DNA from: Candidatus Obscuribacterales bacterium
GTDB taxonomy: Bacteria; Cyanobacteriota; Vampirovibrionia; Obscuribacterales; Obscuribacteraceae
Length of the DNA: 64,000 nucleotides
Reading direction: 5' to 3'
Assembly (NCBI GenBank): GCA_020050835.1
Contig: JAGVKB010000102.1
Location: 124,001-188,000 of the forward strand
Of this stretch, positions 3,407-64,000 are shown piece after piece (within the stretch, counting starts at the first letter, position 1; every line of letters begins with the position of its first letter). Below the pieces are notes generated by a model. The model was not told the origin of the DNA. It saw only the letters and a program-made list of their open reading frames with translations, and did not search any database. The translations under genes were made by a program, and so were the position numbers.

Positions 3407-5487
3407 TTAGTCGCTCCTGCGTTTTCGCCAGAAATTTGAGAGCCGGCTTCACTCATCAGGGCTCGTTTATGGATGAGCAATGCCTGCGCTAGATCGTCTG
3501 CGAACTCTTTCTTCTTGGGATTGAGCGCGCTGGCGATTCTAAACTCGGCTACTGCTTCGTTAATATCGCCACTGTTGAGGAGGTTCACAGCCAATCTGTG
3601 ATGGATGTTGGAATTTTGCGTGTAGGTGACCAGCAGCTGTTTGAGTATTTCAATTGCTCTCGGAAAGTCTCTCTCTGCTTCGGCTTCCTTTACCCGTGCA
3701 TCTGCTTCTTGCAGGGCCGGTTCGAGCTGTGGTGCTGCGTTGGTTGCGGTATTGCCAGTAGTGGCAGTCCTGCCGGCTGAAGCCTGGCGGGCGCCATTAG
3801 CCGAAGTGGGTATTTGTTGAGCTTGGCTGGCAGCTGGCTGGTTAGTTGCGACAACCTGATTGCCGCGCATCGCCTGGGCCGCTAGCCCAGTTTGAGCGGC
3901 GGTCGCGGGTTGATTGACCTGACTGGTAGGCGCCGTCTGAGCAACCGGTGCCGCCTCGAACATGTCCTTTTTTGACATGCTCAAATTGGGAGCCGCCGCT
4001 GCATTGAAGGTGTTTTGCATGCCGGCCGTGACCGGTGGTTGCAGCGAGCGCGGGGCGGCGGTCGGAGCGACAGGTGCGGTTGGCGTTCGATGCGAGCTGT
4101 TCTGCATCTCCTTCATGCGTGCTGCCGCCTCTTGATTGTTTTCGGGATCGATCAAAACGCAGGTAAGATAAGCCTGGTGGGCGCCTTGATAGTCGCCGTT
4201 AGCTTCCAGGCATTCTGCCAGAAGAAATTGATAACGGGCATTTCTCGGTTCCATCATCACCGATTGGCTAATTTCGGCCAGCGCTTCCCTTCTTAGGCCT
4301 TGATTGAAGAGCGTCTCGGCTGCCAGTCTGTGCTTTTCCGCTTTGTCGTGCTGGATGGCGCGAGCAAGGCTCTGCCTACCGCTTGCCAGACCCGGATTCT
4401 TTGGATCGAGCGCTTCGAGCCGGCGGTACTCGCTGTCGGCTCCGATGAAGTCTCCGGTCAGCTGCAGGGCGCCGGCCAGACCGAGATGGTTTTCAGCTAG
4501 AAGCGGATTAGTGGATACCTGTTTGCGCCAGATTTCTACCAGCGCTTGCCCGGCTGCGGTGTCGTGCGAATCTAGGATGACCGCTTTGCGCAGAGAGGCA
4601 GCAGCACCGGTGTAGTCCTTTTGATTGAGCGCCAACAGCCCGAGCTGTCGGTGTGCTGGCCCATAGTCAGTATCTTTTACGATCGCCTGCCGGTACCAGT
4701 TGATGGCGGTGCTGTGTTGACCGAAACGCAGCGCGAGGTCGCCCATCTTCGTGTAGGTGCGAGCGGAGGATTCCAATTGCATCGCTGCTTCGTACTCGAC
4801 AGATGCTCCTTCGTAATCGCCGACGGCGGCCAGTTGATCGGCTGTAGCCAGCCTGATGTCAGCCGACATCGGGTCGCGACCTTGCTTGCCCATCGCTTGA
4901 GCCAGGAGCTTTCCGGCCAAGCCGTTATCGGGTGCTGCTGCCAGCGCCTTACGGAAGAGCCCGGCGGCGGCAGTGAGATCGCCGCCGGCCAGCTTGGCTT
5001 TGCCGTATTCAACCCGAGCGGCTGAGAGATTGATGCGGAATTGTTTGCTCTGTGGGTCGAGCTGAACTGCTTGTTCGTGCGCTGACAGGGCATCAAGCCA
5101 GCGTCCTTGCTTACCGCAGGCAACTGCCTTGTTATTGGCAGCAATCGCCAAATCCTGTCGCTTTTTATAGTTGTCTATCGCTTCGTCTTGAGCGTGCTTG
5201 TGATCTTGAATCGCTTGCAGCTTGGATTGCTCAGCCCTTTTGGCAGCTTCTTCGGACTCCTTCTTTTGCTGAGCTTCGAGCTCGCGAAAGTCGGGACGCC
5301 GTTGGAATCTGCTCGGCTGGTTGATGATGAACTGACCTTCCTTGGTGTTGAAATCTTTGGATTCGCGTTCGTGAGGAAGCGGCGCTGCATTGAGCTTGGT
5401 CGCGCCGGCGGCGGTCGTGGCTAAGGTCAGTGTTAGTGAAAACGCCAGATTGAAGGTTGTGATTGCGATTGTCGACTGCTTGTACAC
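3403..5487 (-). CDS. Secreted or membrane-anchored TPR-repeat protein coupled to rpoB
   Basis: 694 residues. The N-terminus has a hydrophobic Sec-type signal (residues about 6-29, ending TTAAGA). A charged, Lys/Glu/Gln-rich helical stretch follows (about 65-115). A long array of tetratricopeptide repeats occupies about 115-450, with recurring motifs such as ALSAHEQAVQLDP and AINWYRQAI. A low-complexity Ala/Pro/Gln/Thr linker covers about 460-590, and two more TPRs lie near the C-terminus (about 595-665). TPR arrays are protein-binding scaffolds; the partner is unknown. Its TGA stop overlaps the ATG of rpoB by 4 nt (ATGA), which implies co-transcription and translational coupling. That is odd, because this protein appears to be exported while RpoB is cytoplasmic. 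No catalytic motif is visible. Confidence 0.85.
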   Translation of the reverse strand: MYKQSTIAITTFNLAFSLTLTLATTAAGATKLNAAPLPHERESKDFNTKEGQFIINQPSRFQRRPDFRELEAQQKKESEEAAKRAEQSKLQAIQDHKHAQDEAIDNYKKRQDLAIAANNKAVACGKQGRWLDALSAHEQAVQLDPQSKQFRINLSAARVEYGKAKLAGGDLTAAAGLFRKALAAAPDNGLAGKLLAQAMGKQGRDPMSADIRLATADQLAAVGDYEGASVEYEAAMQLESSARTYTKMGDLALRFGQHSTAINWYRQAIVKDTDYGPAHRQLGLLALNQKDYTGAAASLRKAVILDSHDTAAGQALVEIWRKQVSTNPLLAENHLGLAGALQLTGDFIGADSEYRRLEALDPKNPGLASGRQSLARAIQHDKAEKHRLAAETLFNQGLRREALAEISQSVMMEPRNARYQFLLAECLEANGDYQGAHQAYLTCVLIDPENNQEAAARMKEMQNSSHRTPTAPVAPTAAPRSLQPPVTAGMQNTFNAAAAPNLSMSKKDMFEAAPVAQTAPTSQVNQPATAAQTGLAAQAMRGNQVVATNQPAASQAQQIPTSANGARQASAGRTATTGNTATNAAPQLEPALQEADARVKEAEAERDFPRAIEILKQLLVTYTQNSNIHHRLAVNLLNSGDINEAVAEFRIASALNPKKKEFADDLAQALLIHKRALMSEAGSQISGENAGATK

Positions 5488-10037: not shown

Positions 10038-12542
10038 TTGAGCACGGACAATACAATCGGTGCTGGAGTGTGGCTATGCTTGACGTGCGGATTCGAGACC
10101 GCCGATGGCAGCACAGTCTGCCCGCGTGACGGCTCTGTTCTCGTACCGCAAGTCGTGAGCCGGATTGTCGGTAAGACGCTCGACAACCGTTATCTGATTC
10201 AATCAATCTTGGGCCTCGGTGGCGTGACTGTTGTCTACAAGGCGCTTGACACCAGATTGAATCGGCCGGTCGTGATCAAAATGCTGCACGTCGAGTTCGT
10301 CGATGATTCCAAAAAGCTTCTGAGATTCCAGCGGGGAGCAAGAGCGGCCAGCGTGCTGTCGCATCCGAACGTTTTGACTTTGCATGATTGCGTACTGTCC
10401 GAGTCAGGCAGCTGCTATCTGGTGATGGATTTCGTTGAAGGCACAACGCTGGCCGCTGAAATCGGTTATCGCGGTGCGGTCGGGATTGAACGCGGAATTC
10501 GGATTTTCTTGCAGGTTTGCGATGCTCTTGCCCATGCCCACGAACGAAAGATAGTTCACCGGAATCTCAAGCCGAGCAATATCCTTCTGACCAAGAACGC
10601 TGATGGCAGCGAGAAGGTATTGTTAAGTGACTTCGGTATCGCCAAGCAGCTTGTCGGCGCCGGAGAGTCGGCTCAGAAGGTGACGAGCACCGGACAATGG
10701 GTCGGCAGTCCCTTGTACATGAGTCCGGAACAGGCACAGGGCAAGGATGTCGATGCCCGTTCGGATATCTTCTCACTCGGCAAAGTAATGCTGGAGGCTT
10801 TCAGAGGAAAGCTTCCGATCTTGGCAGACAGCATTTTAGGAAGTACGGACAGCGGTAGGACGCCTGACCGCGCGCATCCGGAGTACAGCGATCCGATTCC
10901 GGCACCGCTCAAGGAGATCATGTCCAAGTGTCTGCAGAAGGACCCAAAGGCTCGCTTTCAAAGTGTCAAGGAATTGAGGCGAGAGCTGGACCGGCTGCTG
11001 GGCAAGCAGAGCAGCTCCGGATTGAGCCTGTCGATGGCTTCGACAATCTGGTGGAACCGCGCCGGAGCTTCTTTCAAGTTAGTGCTTGCAATTGTGATAC
11101 TTGTAGTGGTGGCAGTCGCTACAATCGCCTGGCTCAACCTGACATTGCCTGGAAAGATTGAGTTAGCCAGGCTGTCGCTCATGCAGCAAGAGCTGTCCGG
11201 TCATGCCTCCGATCCAAAACTGCGAGATCTGTACATTGCCCTCGGCGATCTGTTGGTACAATCCGGCAAGTTCGGGGATGCTAAAGGCTGTTACTTGAGA
11301 GCTGAGATGATGACCGCCGCCGACAGCCGAACCGACCCGGTTAAGCGCATGGAGATTCTCAGCAAGATCGTCAAGACGTGCGCGCTAACCGGAGACAAGA
11401 GCTACGCAGTTACCGCGGCAACGAAGGCCTGTGAAATTGTCGATTTCCAGCGAAAGTCCTTGGTGTTTAGTGCCAACAAGGCTGAGTTGGGCAAATTATC
11501 CAAGTTGAGGCTGGCAATTGCTGGCTCGGCTTTCGGCGAGCAGAGCGAAGAGTATATGCAAAGCTTGCTAATCGCCAGCGCCGTTGCAGTCGATGAAGAA
11601 CGATTCAAAGATGCCAGGCAACTTTTAGAGAAAGTGATTAATACCGCTCGATCAAAGCCGGTCTTACAGGACCGTGCTTACTATCTTTGGGCCTCAATTG
11701 ATTTGAGCGCCGTTTACTGCGGTCTGGGACGCTGGAAGCTGGCCGAAGGGCTGCTCAAGCAGACCGTCAGTGAGTCGTCGAAGCGCTACGGACCAAACAG
11801 CAGTTATGCAATCTCCGCCTTAACGAGACTTGGCATGCTCTACCGCGATCAGGGACGTTTAGACGAGTCCATACCGGTTCTGCGCCAGGCATTGAATGCT
11901 TCCTACGAGGCCGACTTGCTAGAGCAGAGCTGGCCAATTGTTGCCGGGCTGGCGGCTTCCTATCGAGCCAAGAAAAACTATACCGCCTGCCAAAATCTTT
12001 TAGAGCCGCAGGTAGCGTTAGCCAGTGCCAGACCAGGTAAGGGCTCACCGGAGTGGATTGGTGCAGCAAGCATGCTGGCGGATGTTTACATTGAAAGAAG
12101 AGAGCTTCAGAAGGCTAGAAAGCTGCTCCTGGCGCTCGAGGCTTCGGCGGCTGCGTCCAAACAACTTTCGATTAACGAGCGGTTGGAGGTCGGTATCTTA
12201 CTGGTCAACCTGGACATGTCTAATGGAAATTTCAAGGCGGCTCAACAGCGTCTGGAACGCCTGCTGGGAGAGATTGACGCGCAGACGTTTGTGCGCGCCG
12301 CAATTCGGTCGGAGGTACTGACAAAACTGGCATTTTGTTACGCTGCAAACAAACGATGGCAGGACGCTGACTCAACTTACCGGCGGGTAATGCAGGTTGA
12401 TGAATCGGCAGCGGCGCTCACTCGTACTAAGCTGGCTCATGACTCAGAATTGTACGTTCAGTTCTTGAGGCAAATTGGTCGCAACGAGGATGCCGCTGAT
12501 CGTAAAGCGCGAACCGCTCGGATACTGGCACAAATAAAATGA
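10038..12542 (+). CDS. Zn-knuckle / pseudokinase / TPR membrane protein
   Basis: 834 residues from TTG 10038 (GAGGA 7 nt upstream; TTG 10032 is the alternative). Order: a Cys-containing knuckle (C14, C17, C28; the expected fourth ligand is missing), a protein-kinase fold (about 45-320), one membrane helix (about 346-368), then a long TPR region. The kinase fold keeps the beta-3 Lys (K81), DFG (198-200) and the SPEQ segment. It lacks the catalytic Asp: HRD reads HRN (174-176). The alpha-C Glu is Gly (about 100) and the last Gly of the P-loop is Thr. It is therefore probably a pseudokinase acting as a scaffold or allosteric partner. The topology puts the kinase fold inside and the TPRs outside the membrane, by analogy with PknB-type proteins. 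Confidence 0.85.
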   Translation: MSTDNTIGAGVWLCLTCGFETADGSTVCPRDGSVLVPQVVSRIVGKTLDNRYLIQSILGLGGVTVVYKALDTRLNRPVVIKMLHVEFVDDSKKLLRFQRGARAASVLSHPNVLTLHDCVLSESGSCYLVMDFVEGTTLAAEIGYRGAVGIERGIRIFLQVCDALAHAHERKIVHRNLKPSNILLTKNADGSEKVLLSDFGIAKQLVGAGESAQKVTSTGQWVGSPLYMSPEQAQGKDVDARSDIFSLGKVMLEAFRGKLPILADSILGSTDSGRTPDRAHPEYSDPIPAPLKEIMSKCLQKDPKARFQSVKELRRELDRLLGKQSSSGLSLSMASTIWWNRAGASFKLVLAIVILVVVAVATIAWLNLTLPGKIELARLSLMQQELSGHASDPKLRDLYIALGDLLVQSGKFGDAKGCYLRAEMMTAADSRTDPVKRMEILSKIVKTCALTGDKSYAVTAATKACEIVDFQRKSLVFSANKAELGKLSKLRLAIAGSAFGEQSEEYMQSLLIASAVAVDEERFKDARQLLEKVINTARSKPVLQDRAYYLWASIDLSAVYCGLGRWKLAEGLLKQTVSESSKRYGPNSSYAISALTRLGMLYRDQGRLDESIPVLRQALNASYEADLLEQSWPIVAGLAASYRAKKNYTACQNLLEPQVALASARPGKGSPEWIGAASMLADVYIERRELQKARKLLLALEASAAASKQLSINERLEVGILLVNLDMSNGNFKAAQQRLERLLGEIDAQTFVRAAIRSEVLTKLAFCYAANKRWQDADSTYRRVMQVDESAAALTRTKLAHDSELYVQFLRQIGRNEDAADRKARTARILAQIK

Positions 12543-55472: not shown

Positions 55473-57671
55473 GTGACAACATTGCAAAGCAGCGTGAACA
55501 ACGGCGCAAACGGACCAGCGCGGTTAGAGCTCTTCACGGTCAGCCTGCTGGCATTGTTCATGGAGATGCTTGTCATTCGGTACCTGGGTACCGAAGTCTT
55601 GATCTTTTCTTACTTCAAGAATGTGTCGCTGATGGCGGCTTTCTTGGGGCTCGGTCTCGGTTTCATCTGGACTAACAGCAAGAGAGATTACTTCTGCTGG
55701 TCGGGACCTTCATTCTTAGTATTGTGCGGGGTTTTGATCTGTGCACTGGGGCTTAACATCACGTTTTTGACCTACGTAGATCCTTTCAAGTTCATGCTGT
55801 TCGGAGTCGGCAATCCGCAGGGAGGCACTGTTTATCCGATCTGGACCTGCATTAGAACTGTCGCCATCATGTTGTCACTTTTTGCCTTGACAGCTTTTGC
55901 CTTCGTCGGTTTGGGGCAGAAGATGGGGCAGCTCTTTGAAAAGCTCAAACCGCTCGAAGCTTATTCTGTGAATGTGCTTGGCTCGCTGGCTGGCACCATC
56001 TTGTTTTCAGTCTTGAGCTATTTTGAGCAATCGCCTGGTGCCTGGATGGTGACCGGCGGACTGCTCTTCGTCGCGGTCAAGCGCCGACCGATGCATTTCG
56101 CCCTTTTGGGCTTGGGCATCGTGTATCTAGTCTGGCTGGGCGCTTTTGTCGCGAAGTCTCAGTACGGAGACGATTATGTAGAGACACTTTGGTCGCCGTA
56201 TTACCGGGTAGATGTGATTCAATCTCACCCGCCCGGCGGTCTGGAAAAGGGCCTCAAGTACGGGTATGACCTGCATGTCAGCTATGGCACCTTTCAATCG
56301 ATTGTCGATTGTCGTCCGGAGAACCTGGCGAAGTTTCCCCAAAAGGTGCAGGACGAGATGCTCATTTCGTTCTCCTTGCCCTATGGGCTCTTCAATTCGA
56401 CCCCCAAGCGTGTGTTGATCTTAGGAAGCGGTAATGGCAGCGATGTCGTGGGGGCGATTCGATCCGGCGTTGAGAAAGTCGATGCGGTTGAAATCGATCC
56501 GGTGCTGTCGAAACTCGGAAAGACTCTCCATCCGGAAAGACCTTATCTGTCTCCGCAAGCTCATCTCAATGTCATGGATGCGCGTACTTATCTCAAAAAC
56601 TGCCATGAAAAATATGACTTGATCGTGTTTGCCTACCTCGACAGTCATACGGCGTTCTCCTGCCTGTCTTCCCTGCGCACTGACAATTACATTTTCACTT
56701 CTGACGCGTACAAAGAAGCTGCTAAGCTGCTCGGCGACGATGGTGTGATTTATGTAAGCTTCATCTGTTTCCAGGACTGGCTGTGGGATCGCCATGCCAA
56801 GGCGCTGGCAGCTGCAACCGGAATGACGCCGTTGGGTTATTGTGCCAATAACGGCAATGTCGATGTCGGTGTATTGATTGCCGGACCAGGCGTGCGTGGC
56901 AAGACCGCCTCTGAGCTTCATATGAATAAGCCGCCCAGGAAGGTCGACTTAAATAGTCCGGTGCCAATTGCCACCGATGATTGGCCATTCCTCTTCTTGC
57001 CGCAGATGGAGCTTTCTACTACTTACGTTCTACCGTTGTTACTGATTTTGCTGCTGTCTGCTTGCGTAGTGTTCAAACAGTTGAAAGCCGGCGCTAAGGA
57101 GCCGTTGAACTGGGAGATGTTCTTGCTGGGAATGGGTTTTATGCTGCTGGAAGTCAGAGCGATGGCGGATCTCTCCTTGCTCTTCGGCTCGACCTGGATT
57201 GTCAACAGCGTCGTTATCTCGGTAGTTCTGTTCGTGATTCTGGTCGGAAACTGGCTGGCGGCGCGTCTGAACAATATCCGATTCGTGCCGGTCTTTTTGG
57301 TGGCACTGATAGTTTCACTTGGCCTTTCAACCGCCATTCATGTCGCTGATCTGACCGCCTATGGGGAAGTTGCCGGACGTGTGCTGGGAATTCTGTTTTA
57401 TGTCTTTCCAGTTGCCTTCGCCGCCACTGTCTTTGCGCTCTTCTTCCGAGGAGCCCAAGTCTCCAGCCAGGCGTTGGCTTTCAACCTGTTCGGTGGGCTG
57501 GTTGGAGTTGCGCTTGAGTATCTTTCAATGCTGTTTGGTATAAGAGCTCTGGGATGGATCGGAGTGACTATTTACTCAGTCGTCCTGTTATTTTATCTAA
57601 AGCAAGGCGGAGGGTTTAAATCGCAGCCGGTGGCGGTTAGTCAAGAATTATCGCAAGGAGACAAGCCATGA
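55473..57671 (+). CDS. Membrane-embedded spermidine-synthase-like protein, first copy
   Basis: 732 residues, GTG start with GGAAGG about 6 nt upstream. About six membrane helices (15-225), then a Rossmann methyltransferase-like domain (about 235-500) and about seven more helices (510-720). The domain has the spermidine-synthase layout: TLWSPYYRVD (238-247), nucleotide loop LGSGNGSD (317-324), acidic VEIDP (339-343), and DAR (369-371). The catalytic region where aminopropyltransferases have Asp-x-x-Asp/Pro reads LDSHT (389-393). Membrane proteins of this type are annotated as spermidine synthase-like in many bacteria, with no proven reaction. The stop overlaps the paralogue's start by 4 nt. 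Confidence 0.83.
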   Translation: MTTLQSSVNNGANGPARLELFTVSLLALFMEMLVIRYLGTEVLIFSYFKNVSLMAAFLGLGLGFIWTNSKRDYFCWSGPSFLVLCGVLICALGLNITFLTYVDPFKFMLFGVGNPQGGTVYPIWTCIRTVAIMLSLFALTAFAFVGLGQKMGQLFEKLKPLEAYSVNVLGSLAGTILFSVLSYFEQSPGAWMVTGGLLFVAVKRRPMHFALLGLGIVYLVWLGAFVAKSQYGDDYVETLWSPYYRVDVIQSHPPGGLEKGLKYGYDLHVSYGTFQSIVDCRPENLAKFPQKVQDEMLISFSLPYGLFNSTPKRVLILGSGNGSDVVGAIRSGVEKVDAVEIDPVLSKLGKTLHPERPYLSPQAHLNVMDARTYLKNCHEKYDLIVFAYLDSHTAFSCLSSLRTDNYIFTSDAYKEAAKLLGDDGVIYVSFICFQDWLWDRHAKALAAATGMTPLGYCANNGNVDVGVLIAGPGVRGKTASELHMNKPPRKVDLNSPVPIATDDWPFLFLPQMELSTTYVLPLLLILLLSACVVFKQLKAGAKEPLNWEMFLLGMGFMLLEVRAMADLSLLFGSTWIVNSVVISVVLFVILVGNWLAARLNNIRFVPVFLVALIVSLGLSTAIHVADLTAYGEVAGRVLGILFYVFPVAFAATVFALFFRGAQVSSQALAFNLFGGLVGVALEYLSMLFGIRALGWIGVTIYSVVLLFYLKQGGGFKSQPVAVSQELSQGDKP

Positions 57672-59833
57672 GCGCAAGCGATGCCGAGCCCAAGCAATCC
57701 GATCTCGGTGTTGAACTTTTCCTGCTAAGCTTCGCCTCTTTATTTTTAGAGCTACTGGCGATTCGCTGGCTGTCATCGGAGATCCGGGCTTTCAGCATCT
57801 ATAAGAACTTTCCTTTGATCACCTGCTTTGTCGGATTGGGTGGAGGCTTCTTGCTGGCCTGTCGCGGCGAAAGGTTCTTTCGATTCTTTCCCTGGTTGCT
57901 GCTAGCGCTGACCATAATTGTCGCCACGAGTGATTTGACCGGTCTGGCGGTGATAGTGGCGCCCAGCACGCGCACTATTACCGGGCATGTCTGGGGAGAT
58001 CTTGTGCACCCGCCGGCGATGGCAGTAAGCGATCCGCTGCTTTACACGGCCCTTTCCTTTGGATCCTTTTTCTCCTTGCTGACCTTGCTAGCTTGCACCT
58101 TCGCTGCACTCGGCGAGCGAATCGGCAGATTATTCAACGCCTTTGTGCCGTTGCGCGCGTATTCTGTCAATCTGCTTGGTGCTACCTTCGGTATCATCGG
58201 CTTTGCGCTGCTCTCCTTCCTGTGCACCGGTCCGACAGTCTGGATGGCGGTTGCGGTAGTTCCCCTGCTGTACAGCTTCAGAAAGCAAAAGCTGGGAGCG
58301 CTGGCCCTTATCTTGTGCGTCGCTACGGCCGGGCTCATGCCGCTTTTAAATCGGCCACAGCCAGCAAGCAATGGAGCATTTTGCGGTACTCTCTGGTCGC
58401 CTTACCACCGCGTCGATATCGAGCCGTTCTACTGGAAGTCCGAGGGAGGCTCCTCCGGCCAGGAGCAGATTGGCTACAACATTACAGTCAATAAAGCATT
58501 TTTCCAGCAACCGTTGAATCTTTCCCAGCAGTTTCTGGGAAAGCTTGCCGGCGGGAAGCAGCTGGCTGATTTCAAATTGAATCTGTATGAGTTTCCCTAT
58601 CTGCTTTTGAATCCAACCAGCGTCCTGGTAATGGGCAGTGGTACCGGCAATGATGTCGCTGCCGCTTTGCGGCATAAAGTTGGCTCGGTGCAAGCGGTCG
58701 AAATCGATCCTCTGATGGTTAAGCTAGGCCATGAGCTTCACGCAGAGAAACCGTATGATGCGCCGAACGTAAAAGTCGACATTAATGACGCCCGCGCCTT
58801 CCTGCGGCAGACCCCTAACCAGTACGACCTGGTCTTGACCGGTGTGCTTGATTCTCATACGGTTGCCGGCAATTCGCTTTCGGTCAGGCTGGACGACTAC
58901 GTCTACACGGCAGATGGATTACGTGACGCGCTGGCTCGAGTGAAACCGGGTGGACTGCTCAACATCTCTTACTGTGCGACTGAGGATTTCTTAGCTAAGC
59001 GTATTGCAGCCAATCTCAGGTTGGCTGCCGGTGGTGCGTCAGCCAACAATATCGCGGTTTTCAAAGAGAAGGGGACGGATATCTGGCATTATCTGGCTCC
59101 GGTCACTCCAGAGTTTCGGCAGAAACTGCGCCAGATACTGCCTGCTGACTACGAAGACTTGACAGAGGTGGATGTGACTGGAATCAGACCGTCCACTGAT
59201 GACTGGCCATATCTCTATCTGCGCCCGATGACGCTCGACCCGACCTATCTTTCGGTCTGTCTGGCAGCGCTGCTTTTGGCCTGGGCGGTGCTCGGCAAGT
59301 CAGTAAGGCAGTTTCAAACAGCTCACCGGTGGCATCTGTTTTTTCTGGGTGCTGGTTTCTTGCTGGTTGAGCTGGCGATCGTCGATCGCCTGGCATTGAT
59401 CTTCGGAACCACATGGATAGTAAATTCGGTGGCAATTTTTGCCGTGATGGTGACTATTACTCTAGCTAATTTGCTGGTTCTCAAATACCCATTCAAGTTG
59501 TCGGCTGGTGTTCTCTATAGCCTGTTGTTGGGGCTGATGGTTGTGCTTTATTTCGTGCCGGTTGAACGTTTCAACGCCCTGGGCGTTGTGACAGGCGGAC
59601 TTTTGGCTGCTTTGTTGAGTGCGGTGCCGATCTTTTTTGCCGGCATCATTTTCTCTCGATCTTTTGCAAAAGAAGAGCAGCCGAGCGTCGGCTTGGCCTT
59701 CAATACTTTTGGAGCAGTGGTCGGTGGTTTGCTGGAGTACGCGGCGACTTACACCGGTCTGCGCAGTTTGCTTTTGATCGCCGCGATGATTTATGTCCTG
59801 TCTTATCTCTTCTATCGCCGGGCAAAGTTGTAG
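57668..59833 (+). CDS. Membrane-embedded spermidine-synthase-like protein, second copy
   Basis: 721 residues with the same layout as the preceding gene: helices, Rossmann domain (about 238-500), helices. Matching motifs are TLWSPYHRVD (241-250), MGSGTGND (322-329), VEIDP (344-348), NDAR (373-376) and LDSHT (394-398). Identity is clearest there and in the AYSVN segment of the N-terminal helices; loops differ in length. ATGA overlap with the first copy and GCAAGGAGA just upstream make translation coupled. Retention of two diverged copies suggests a heterodimer or two related substrates. The natural substrate is unknown; LDSHT is not the usual polyamine motif. Confidence 0.83.
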   Translation: MSASDAEPKQSDLGVELFLLSFASLFLELLAIRWLSSEIRAFSIYKNFPLITCFVGLGGGFLLACRGERFFRFFPWLLLALTIIVATSDLTGLAVIVAPSTRTITGHVWGDLVHPPAMAVSDPLLYTALSFGSFFSLLTLLACTFAALGERIGRLFNAFVPLRAYSVNLLGATFGIIGFALLSFLCTGPTVWMAVAVVPLLYSFRKQKLGALALILCVATAGLMPLLNRPQPASNGAFCGTLWSPYHRVDIEPFYWKSEGGSSGQEQIGYNITVNKAFFQQPLNLSQQFLGKLAGGKQLADFKLNLYEFPYLLLNPTSVLVMGSGTGNDVAAALRHKVGSVQAVEIDPLMVKLGHELHAEKPYDAPNVKVDINDARAFLRQTPNQYDLVLTGVLDSHTVAGNSLSVRLDDYVYTADGLRDALARVKPGGLLNISYCATEDFLAKRIAANLRLAAGGASANNIAVFKEKGTDIWHYLAPVTPEFRQKLRQILPADYEDLTEVDVTGIRPSTDDWPYLYLRPMTLDPTYLSVCLAALLLAWAVLGKSVRQFQTAHRWHLFFLGAGFLLVELAIVDRLALIFGTTWIVNSVAIFAVMVTITLANLLVLKYPFKLSAGVLYSLLLGLMVVLYFVPVERFNALGVVTGGLLAALLSAVPIFFAGIIFSRSFAKEEQPSVGLAFNTFGAVVGGLLEYAATYTGLRSLLLIAAMIYVLSYLFYRRAKL

Positions 59834-62947: not shown

Positions 62948-64000
62948 CTACTTTACTTTTCTGTAAATGAAGACGCTCTTGTATTCAGAGCTGTGGAATT
63001 TATTGACGCTTTCAATGGCGATCTTGCGTTGCTTGCTGCTGTTGTTGGCGATCATGTCGTCGCCTACATAGATTGCCGCATGTCCCGGACTGTCGCCGTA
63101 ACGGTGAGCGATGATTACGTCTCCCGGTTGAGCCTGGCTCAGCGATAGCTTCTTGAAGCCGAATCGGCGCAGATCGTTTTCCAATCCTTCGACGGTTGCA
63201 TCCTTGGTCGGCAGATTATCGGCCTTCTTCAGGACCACACTTACAAAGCGTGCGCAGCCTAAAGTTTCCGGAATCGAACTGTCGTAATCTTGAATCGAAT
63301 GACCGACCATCGACTTGATCACCTTGTCTGTGCGTTGCCAGTGGGCGGCGGAAGCTTTGGTGTAAGGTCCGCTTGGTTTGTCGAACTGATCTCTTTTACG
63401 CTCGGGGCTATCTGGCCTGTCCGGTTCGTTGGGCGGCCAGGGAGCATCCTGACCGGTTACATGGTTGTGAGTATACTGGCGACCATCGGGGCCTACCCGC
63501 AGGCTCATGCCTGCTATTTGCGGAGAGCCGCTGTCTGTCTGCATTTCGGTTGGACGAACGCCCTGGCGATTGAGCGCTGGCCCGGACGGCAGTGGCTCAA
63601 CCGGCGGCCAGGGAGCATCTTGCCCGGTTAGGTGATTGTGAGTGTATTGTCGCCCATCCGGACCAATTCTCAGGCTCATGCCGGACAGCGTCGAGCCGCC
63701 GGGTTGTTCCAGGCAACCCGGCGCATAATCGCCTTGGTCGGGCGGCAGAATCGGTTGCTCGGGCGGGGGAGCCTGATTTCGCCAGTTATAGAACGGATTG
63801 GATTGGTTCGGCCCTGATTCCCAGGCAAAGAGCGAATTGTGGCCCATTCCTGGTTGTTGGGGCGACTGCCAGTTGTAAAACGGGGGTCGATTGCCGTTAA
63901 TCATGCCTGGCATATTTGGGTTGTAGAACGGCGATGCGCCGGAATTGCCCTGCCACGGTGCCTGCATGCTGCTGTAGTAGGAATTGAGAAGCTGTTGTTG
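62948..64000 (-). CDS. NlpC/P60-like peptidase with Pro/Gln-rich repeats, 5' end outside window
   Basis: At least 350 codons, open to the right edge; an internal ATG at 63967 has no ribosome site, so the true start probably lies beyond. The N-terminal part is Pro/Asn/Gly/Gln-rich (NPFYNWRNQAPPPEQP). Two near-identical 27-residue units follow, each reading GMSLR-GPDGRQYTHNH-TGQDAPWPP with two differences. The C-terminal 130 residues carry an NlpC/P60 or CHAP-like papain fold: Cys in LGCARFVSVVLKKA and His in SPGHAAIYVGDDMIA, with GDVIIAHRYGD between. Such domains cut peptidoglycan peptides. The repeats may bind wall or partner; the signal peptide, if any, is not visible. Confidence 0.75.
   Translation of the reverse strand, partial: QQQLLNSYYSSMQAPWQGNSGASPFYNPNMPGMINGNRPPFYNWQSPQQPGMGHNSLFAWESGPNQSNPFYNWRNQAPPPEQPILPPDQGDYAPGCLEQPGGSTLSGMSLRIGPDGRQYTHNHLTGQDAPWPPVEPLPSGPALNRQGVRPTEMQTDSGSPQIAGMSLRVGPDGRQYTHNHVTGQDAPWPPNEPDRPDSPERKRDQFDKPSGPYTKASAAHWQRTDKVIKSMVGHSIQDYDSSIPETLGCARFVSVVLKKADNLPTKDATVEGLENDLRRFGFKKLSLSQAQPGDVIIAHRYGDSPGHAAIYVGDDMIANNSSKQRKIAIESVNKFHSSEYKSVFIYRKVK
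63432..63511. repeat. 80-bp direct repeat, copy 1
   Basis: Encodes the second of two peptide units in the NlpC/P60-like gene. It is closely similar to 63603-63682, with scattered substitutions and no indel, mostly at synonymous positions, which points to selection on the peptide. Confidence 0.85.
63603..63682. repeat. 80-bp direct repeat, copy 2
   Basis: Partner of 63432-63511, starting 171 bases further on in the same frame (57 codons). The spacer between the units is Pro/Gly/Arg-rich and not repeated. Confidence 0.85.

Follow-up and report, generated by a model that had tools for sequence, protein, structure and literature searches.

Two overlapping genes of an Obscuribacterales bacterium, P1 and P2, are predicted to encode MFS-type transporters that carry an extracytoplasmic, ligand-handling domain derived from an aminopropyltransferase. 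This is the most likely of the explanations considered, with a probability of roughly two in five, and transport itself is a putative function, weakly suggested by the MFS fold of a structure model. Both proteins belong to a family that has lost key residues of spermidine synthases while keeping a set of its own.

The window, meaning the whole stretch of 64,000 nucleotides analysed, holds both genes on the forward strand with intact reading frames: P1 (55473–57671, 732 amino acids, GTG start), which is MFS-like with a central spermidine-synthase-fold domain, and P2 (57668–59833, 721 amino acids, ATG start), a diverged paralog of P1. The genes overlap by an ATGA, and a purine-rich, Shine–Dalgarno-like stretch lies ahead of both (GGAAGGAAGG; AGGAG). 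The two proteins are 33 % identical over 717 aligned positions (E 9e-101), so their likeness is not due to chance. Common to both are TLWSPY[YH]RVD, found as TLWSPYYRVD in P1 (56184–56213) and TLWSPYHRVD in P2 (58388–58417), and LDSHT (56637–56651 in P1, 58847–58861 in P2). The former is the family form of the [ST]PYQ motif in the N-domain of aminopropyltransferases. A further, family-specific motif stands just ahead of the second membrane block of P1 (TDDWPFLF, 56973–56996) and has its counterpart in P2 (TDDWPYLY, 59195–59218).

Pfam Spermine_synth (PF01564) matched only the centre of each protein (3.5e-8 for P1, 3.8e-9 for P2), and the scores of 33.7 and 36.8 bits exceeded the gathering threshold of 22.9, placing both in the superfamily. 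AlphaFold2, run with an alignment of 76 sequences, predicted seven helices, a soluble domain and seven more helices (pLDDT 91.3, pTM 0.92). In P1 these parts correspond to an N-terminal membrane block (residues 14–234, 55512–56174; bounded by the model helices and by hydropathy in 76 homologs), a soluble domain (residues 235–515, 56175–57017; bounded by VIA-align to 1uir) and a C-terminal membrane block consisting of an MFS half with one leading helix (residues 516–710, 57018–57602); the soluble domain of P2 spans residues 239–523 approximately (58382–59236), by alignment to P1. The central domain has the Rossmann part and N-terminal beta domain typical of polyamine aminopropyltransferases and was superposed on a Thermus aminopropyltransferase (1uir_B) over 259 residues (VIA-align Z 23.1, rmsd 2.9). 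An earlier note on this DNA had described two diverged copies, each with a Rossmann domain between two blocks of helices and sharing TLWSPY-RVD and LDSHT, and this description was borne out.

The structure search with the whole model was uninformative on the membrane blocks because the spermidine-synthase fold filled the list. The C-terminal block was folded alone (pLDDT 94.2), and the best 50 rows of its structural alignment search were all MFS transporters (Z up to 18.8); the top Foldseek rows were also MFS, with probabilities of 0.99–1.00, though with weak E-values (0.03 and above). Comparison of the N- and C-terminal blocks detected an internal repeat that was weak by sequence and lay in the expected register (61 columns, hhalign probability 40 %, E 2.9e-4). 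Because the C-terminal block matches MFS transporters and the weak repeat links both blocks, the membrane part is modelled as a split MFS, in which 6+1 helices precede the soluble domain and 1+6 follow it.

Residue, charge and hydropathy statistics rest on the 76-sequence alignment. The residue register was fixed by phmmer alignment to 1uir and by joint alignment with other aminopropyltransferases, from the count of which one row in a wrong reading frame (L102) was left out. The comparison set consisted of 22 aminopropyltransferases from related genomes, including the membrane SpeE on contig C24 of the same genome, and in all 22 the glycine-loop acid, the first Asp of DxxDP and the polyamine-site motif DE..YHE were kept. 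In the family, the position of the GGG[DE]G acid (321) was non-acidic in 76/76 homologs, with Thr, Ser, Ala and Asn among its occupants; it lies in the loops GSGNGSD of P1 (56424–56444) and GSGTGND of P2 (58634–58654), in the latter as Thr. The first DxxDP Asp (position 387, Ala in P1) was Gly, Ala, Ser or Pro in all 76, and DE..YHE was found in none of the family members listed. The second DxxDP Asp, D390 of LDSHT, was invariant, as were D342, D369, R402 and T409, and D324 was kept in 75 of the 76. This indicates that the replacement of the usual catalytic Asp context by LDSHT, remarked on in the earlier note, is family-wide. E/D340, D342 and D369 match adenosyl-site residues and are retained, while D390, R402, T409, D502 and W504 form, as judged from the alignment, a family-specific invariant set.

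The glycine-loop acid binds the amine of decarboxylated SAM (dcSAM) and keeps SAM out (PMC1282579; PMC3725402), with Asp101 excluding the carboxyl group of SAM (PMC1282579). In Datura spermidine synthase the D103I exchange alone abolished aminopropyl transfer and brought a weak methyl transfer (PMC3725402). Loss of this acid would make SAM chemically acceptable to P1 and P2, as with Datura D103I, their use of SAM being hypothetical. The main rival explanation, which comes near to the idea of the earlier note, builds on this loss: the domain would be a SAM-dependent methyltransferase held at the cytoplasmic face by the MFS-like block and methylating a membrane or transported substrate at an amine or headgroup, the donor having switched from dcSAM to SAM with the GGGDG Asp, as in plant putrescine N-methyltransferase. 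Its support comes from the uniformly non-acidic position 321, the Datura and Asp101 results, matches of P2 to Methyltransf_31 and Methyltransf_25 that both fell below cut-off, and the METTL13 and archaeal m4(2)C synthase rows of the structure search, which are methyltransferases on this fold. As the dcSAM-amine Asp/Glu is gone as well, a methyltransferase is a better guess than an aminopropyltransferase among the two activities that had been proposed for these proteins. However, charge bias and MFS homology place the domain outside, away from SAM, which leaves a cytoplasmic SAM-using enzyme doubtful; nor do conserved lipid or substrate genes adjoin the family.

The placement of the domain was predicted from K+R counts per side, taken with the AlphaFold2 helix boundaries. 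Counts opposite the soluble domain exceeded those on the domain side in 76/76 homologs (mean 15.4 vs 3.0), and the C-terminal block alone was biased in the same direction, again in 76/76. With automatic helix finding, C-side parity was obtained in 66/76 instead of 76/76; the finder missed helices in most of 12 MFS controls from the same genome, so the hydropathy topology of these controls was only partly usable. Cysteine content was uninformative as a sign of location (0.58 % vs 0.64 %). The helices flanking the domain are strongly hydrophobic (206–234 in 84 % and 516–540 in 96 % of homologs). SLC15 structural rows aligned helix 544–571 of P1 with MFS TM1, the N-terminal end of which is cytoplasmic, so the hydrophobic helix 516–540 would come from outside. 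Most structural rows matched the TM3–TM4 loop, from about residue 104–110, to the strand that opens spermidine synthase, which would put this K/R-poor loop on the side of the domain, and a 533-residue MFS protein of the same genome has zero K/R in the equivalent TM7–TM8 hairpin loop. As charge bias and MFS homology are independent and agree, we infer with moderate strength that the soluble domain is extracytoplasmic, in a position comparable to that of the TM7–TM8 hairpin loop of 14-helix MFS proteins. The earlier picture of a membrane-buried Rossmann enzyme is not upheld, the domain being a soluble insert between the membrane blocks that is predicted to lie outside the cytoplasm.

This prediction carries a serious caveat. 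The same outside prediction was obtained for nine canonical membrane SpeE proteins (L103–L111, NF002956), whose active sites are complete and which have a seven-helix, N-in charge pattern. SAM and dcSAM are cytoplasmic, and membrane SpeE should need cytoplasmic dcSAM. Either the P1/P2 family and membrane SpeE both work outside or the charge rule misleads for this architecture.

The genes flanking P1 and P2 are ordinary and unrelated to them: DnaJ-domain, RimO-like radical SAM, RodZ-like, pseudouridine synthase, DUF948 and YtxH genes upstream, CoaBC and MetG genes downstream. No conserved neighbour family of the homologs was detected, since no Pfam family occurred in more than 4 of the 109 immediately flanking genes scanned, the commonest being HATPase_c (4) and PMT_2 (4). 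A lipid or membrane substrate, suggested in the earlier note and to be checked by co-occurrence with lipid or exopolysaccharide genes, found no support here, and a conserved lipid or exopolysaccharide gene cluster around the homologs was rejected for lack of any shared context among the 109 genes. Large PMT_2-type, glycosyltransferase-like membrane proteins were seen near L042, L047, L057 and L006, too few for an association. A GmhB-like HAD phosphatase, judged by eye, lies directly 3′ of two distant family members (the phosphatase gene at 3662–4327 of locus L006, from contig C99 of the same genome, and at 10223–10816 of locus L026, a P1-clade relative). Also in the window, an NlpC/P60 protein (62948–63967, reverse strand) repeats the segment SLR-GPDGRQYTHNH-TGQDAPWPP within its N-terminal half.

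Third in rank stands a catalytically dead aminopropyltransferase fold that would have a structural or regulatory role within an MFS protein and bind no cofactor. The loss of both key acids and the multi-copy nature of the family favour such a scaffold. The invariance or near-invariance of D342, D369, D390, R402 and D404 over many phyla would be unusual for a dead pocket, and this explanation is considered unlikely.

It is very improbable that P1 or P2 is an ordinary membrane-anchored polyamine aminopropyltransferase. The fold is the same and PF01564 scores above its cut-off, but against the curated NCBIfam speE models the proteins reached 35–40 bits, far below cut-offs of 249.55–537; both catalytic acids and DE..YHE are missing, and the genome encodes a separate intact membrane SpeE (contig C24) as well as two SpeD. 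Either key acid was present in 0/76 homologs and both in 22/22 comparison enzymes. On the active-site losses and the low scores against curated SpeE models, P1 and P2 are not to be filed as ordinary spermidine synthases, which agrees with the view already taken of them in the earlier note. The same genome also contains a second SpeE-like domain (L012, C32:77562–78368) that keeps GGGDG, has the second DxxDP Asp replaced (DLTV) and ends in a Gly/His-rich tail.

The family is widespread. When 84,980 genomes were scanned by pattern and tblastn, at least 467 homologous stretches were detected in many bacterial phyla, and the best 79 of the 467 loci came from Obscuribacterales, other Melainabacteria-type lineages, Acidobacteria, Chloroflexi, Planctomycetes, Nitrospinae, Deltaproteobacteria and others. 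Strong matches were present in 18 of 30 related genomes, often several per genome. The genome under study (7.0 Mb, 154 contigs) has further full-length relatives on contigs C77, C14, C88 and C99, a more distant relative of 834 residues on C16, and forms of 1100 residues. One very diverged member of this genome (L006, C99:12648–14831) has LESQT in place of LDSHT and a very long branch in the tree, and probably has a different function.

P1 and P2 fall into different clades, each with 100 % SH-aLRT support, which makes them paralogs of long standing and speaks against a recent duplication. The relative G005, assembled in some 20 contigs, carries its P1-type gene on contig C14 and its P2-type gene on C10, and a P1–P2 pair was found at none of the P1- and P2-clade loci inspected; neighbouring family copies occur sporadically elsewhere (L029, L042, L061). 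With orthologs apart in G005 and unpaired at the inspected loci, the overlap of P1 and P2 is a local arrangement and not a conserved unit. The earlier description of the genes as coupled therefore stands for the ATGA overlap in this genome, whereas a functional pair is not supported. As a general feature, an obligate heterodimer or a conserved P1–P2 pair was rejected, the orthologs being non-adjacent in G005 and at the inspected loci. The idea that P1 or P2 is a duplicate in decay deserves hardly any weight: the genes are adjacent and 33 % identical, but they come from separate old clades, each has an intact frame, and P1 and P2 alike carry every family-invariant residue.

Fusions of an MFS-like membrane part with a spermidine-synthase-like domain are already known (NF037959; PMC11237479). 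NF037959, the fused MFS/spermidine synthase model, describes such a combination, and two long paralogs in the same genome match it at 127–139 bits (L013 and L015; cut-off 40), whereas P1 and P2 gave no match to it even at E 1. In L013 the domain follows the helices and is itself followed by TPR repeats; in P1 and P2 it lies between two membrane blocks. The membrane polyamine aminopropyltransferase (NF002956/PRK03612; seven transmembrane helices plus SpeE, represented here on C24) shares the N-terminal seven-helix layout and the domain fold, but keeps GGGDG, D[FL]PDP and DE.RYHE, all absent from P1 and P2, and is without a second membrane block. A study of PSP operons mentioned a 7TM fusion and gives a precedent for joining this domain to a transporter-like part (PMC11237479); that fusion sits in a CesT/PspA/DUF350/DUF4178 operon, whereas P1 and P2 lack a conserved operon and have a second membrane block. 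The aminopropyltransferase fold without the glycine-loop Asp is also found in plant putrescine N-methyltransferase (PMC3725402), but that enzyme is soluble, keeps the polyamine site and has a known substrate. The 14-helix MFS proteins (DHA2/EmrB type, SLC15) show the same 6+2+6 layout, with a hairpin loop on the outside between two extra helices, but this loop holds no enzyme-fold domain. A literature search found no paper on a fused MFS spermidine synthase or on a membrane-bound spermidine synthase. What is new in P1 and P2 is the domain between two membrane blocks, their own motif set and their position outside NF037959.

In the preferred explanation, that of a transporter with an outer ligand-handling domain, the aminopropyltransferase-fold domain sits on a pair of extra helices that separate the N-terminal from the C-terminal six-helix bundle. 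Having lost the dcSAM-amine Asp/Glu, the first (catalytic) DxxDP Asp and DE..YHE, the domain would make no spermidine. It might instead bind, and perhaps chemically alter, a transported or regulatory ligand that could be adenosyl- or polyamine-like, and this handling might run in step with the MFS cycle. P1 and P2 would then be two transporters with different ligands and not halves of one enzyme. A more specific proposal, held more tentatively, is that a transferase-fold domain binding an adenosyl ligand is mounted on the MFS hairpin at the outer side of the membrane, so that transporter and SAM-type fold cooperate across it. Several observations count against the transporter explanation: the conserved adenosyl-site residues speak for a domain inside, as SAM and dcSAM are found in the cytoplasm; the nine intact membrane SpeE proteins are also predicted outside; C-side parity falls to 66/76 with automatic helix finding; and the 109 flanking genes show no conserved operon.

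The homologous stretches, at least 467 in number, probably carry spermidine synthase annotations although they are without the residues that this reaction needs. Should the outside placement hold, it would be an unexpected case of a SAM-type fold put to use on the extracytoplasmic face of a transporter. The same topology signals would put even intact membrane SpeE outside the cytoplasm, and the same question would then arise for the canonical membrane-bound SpeE.
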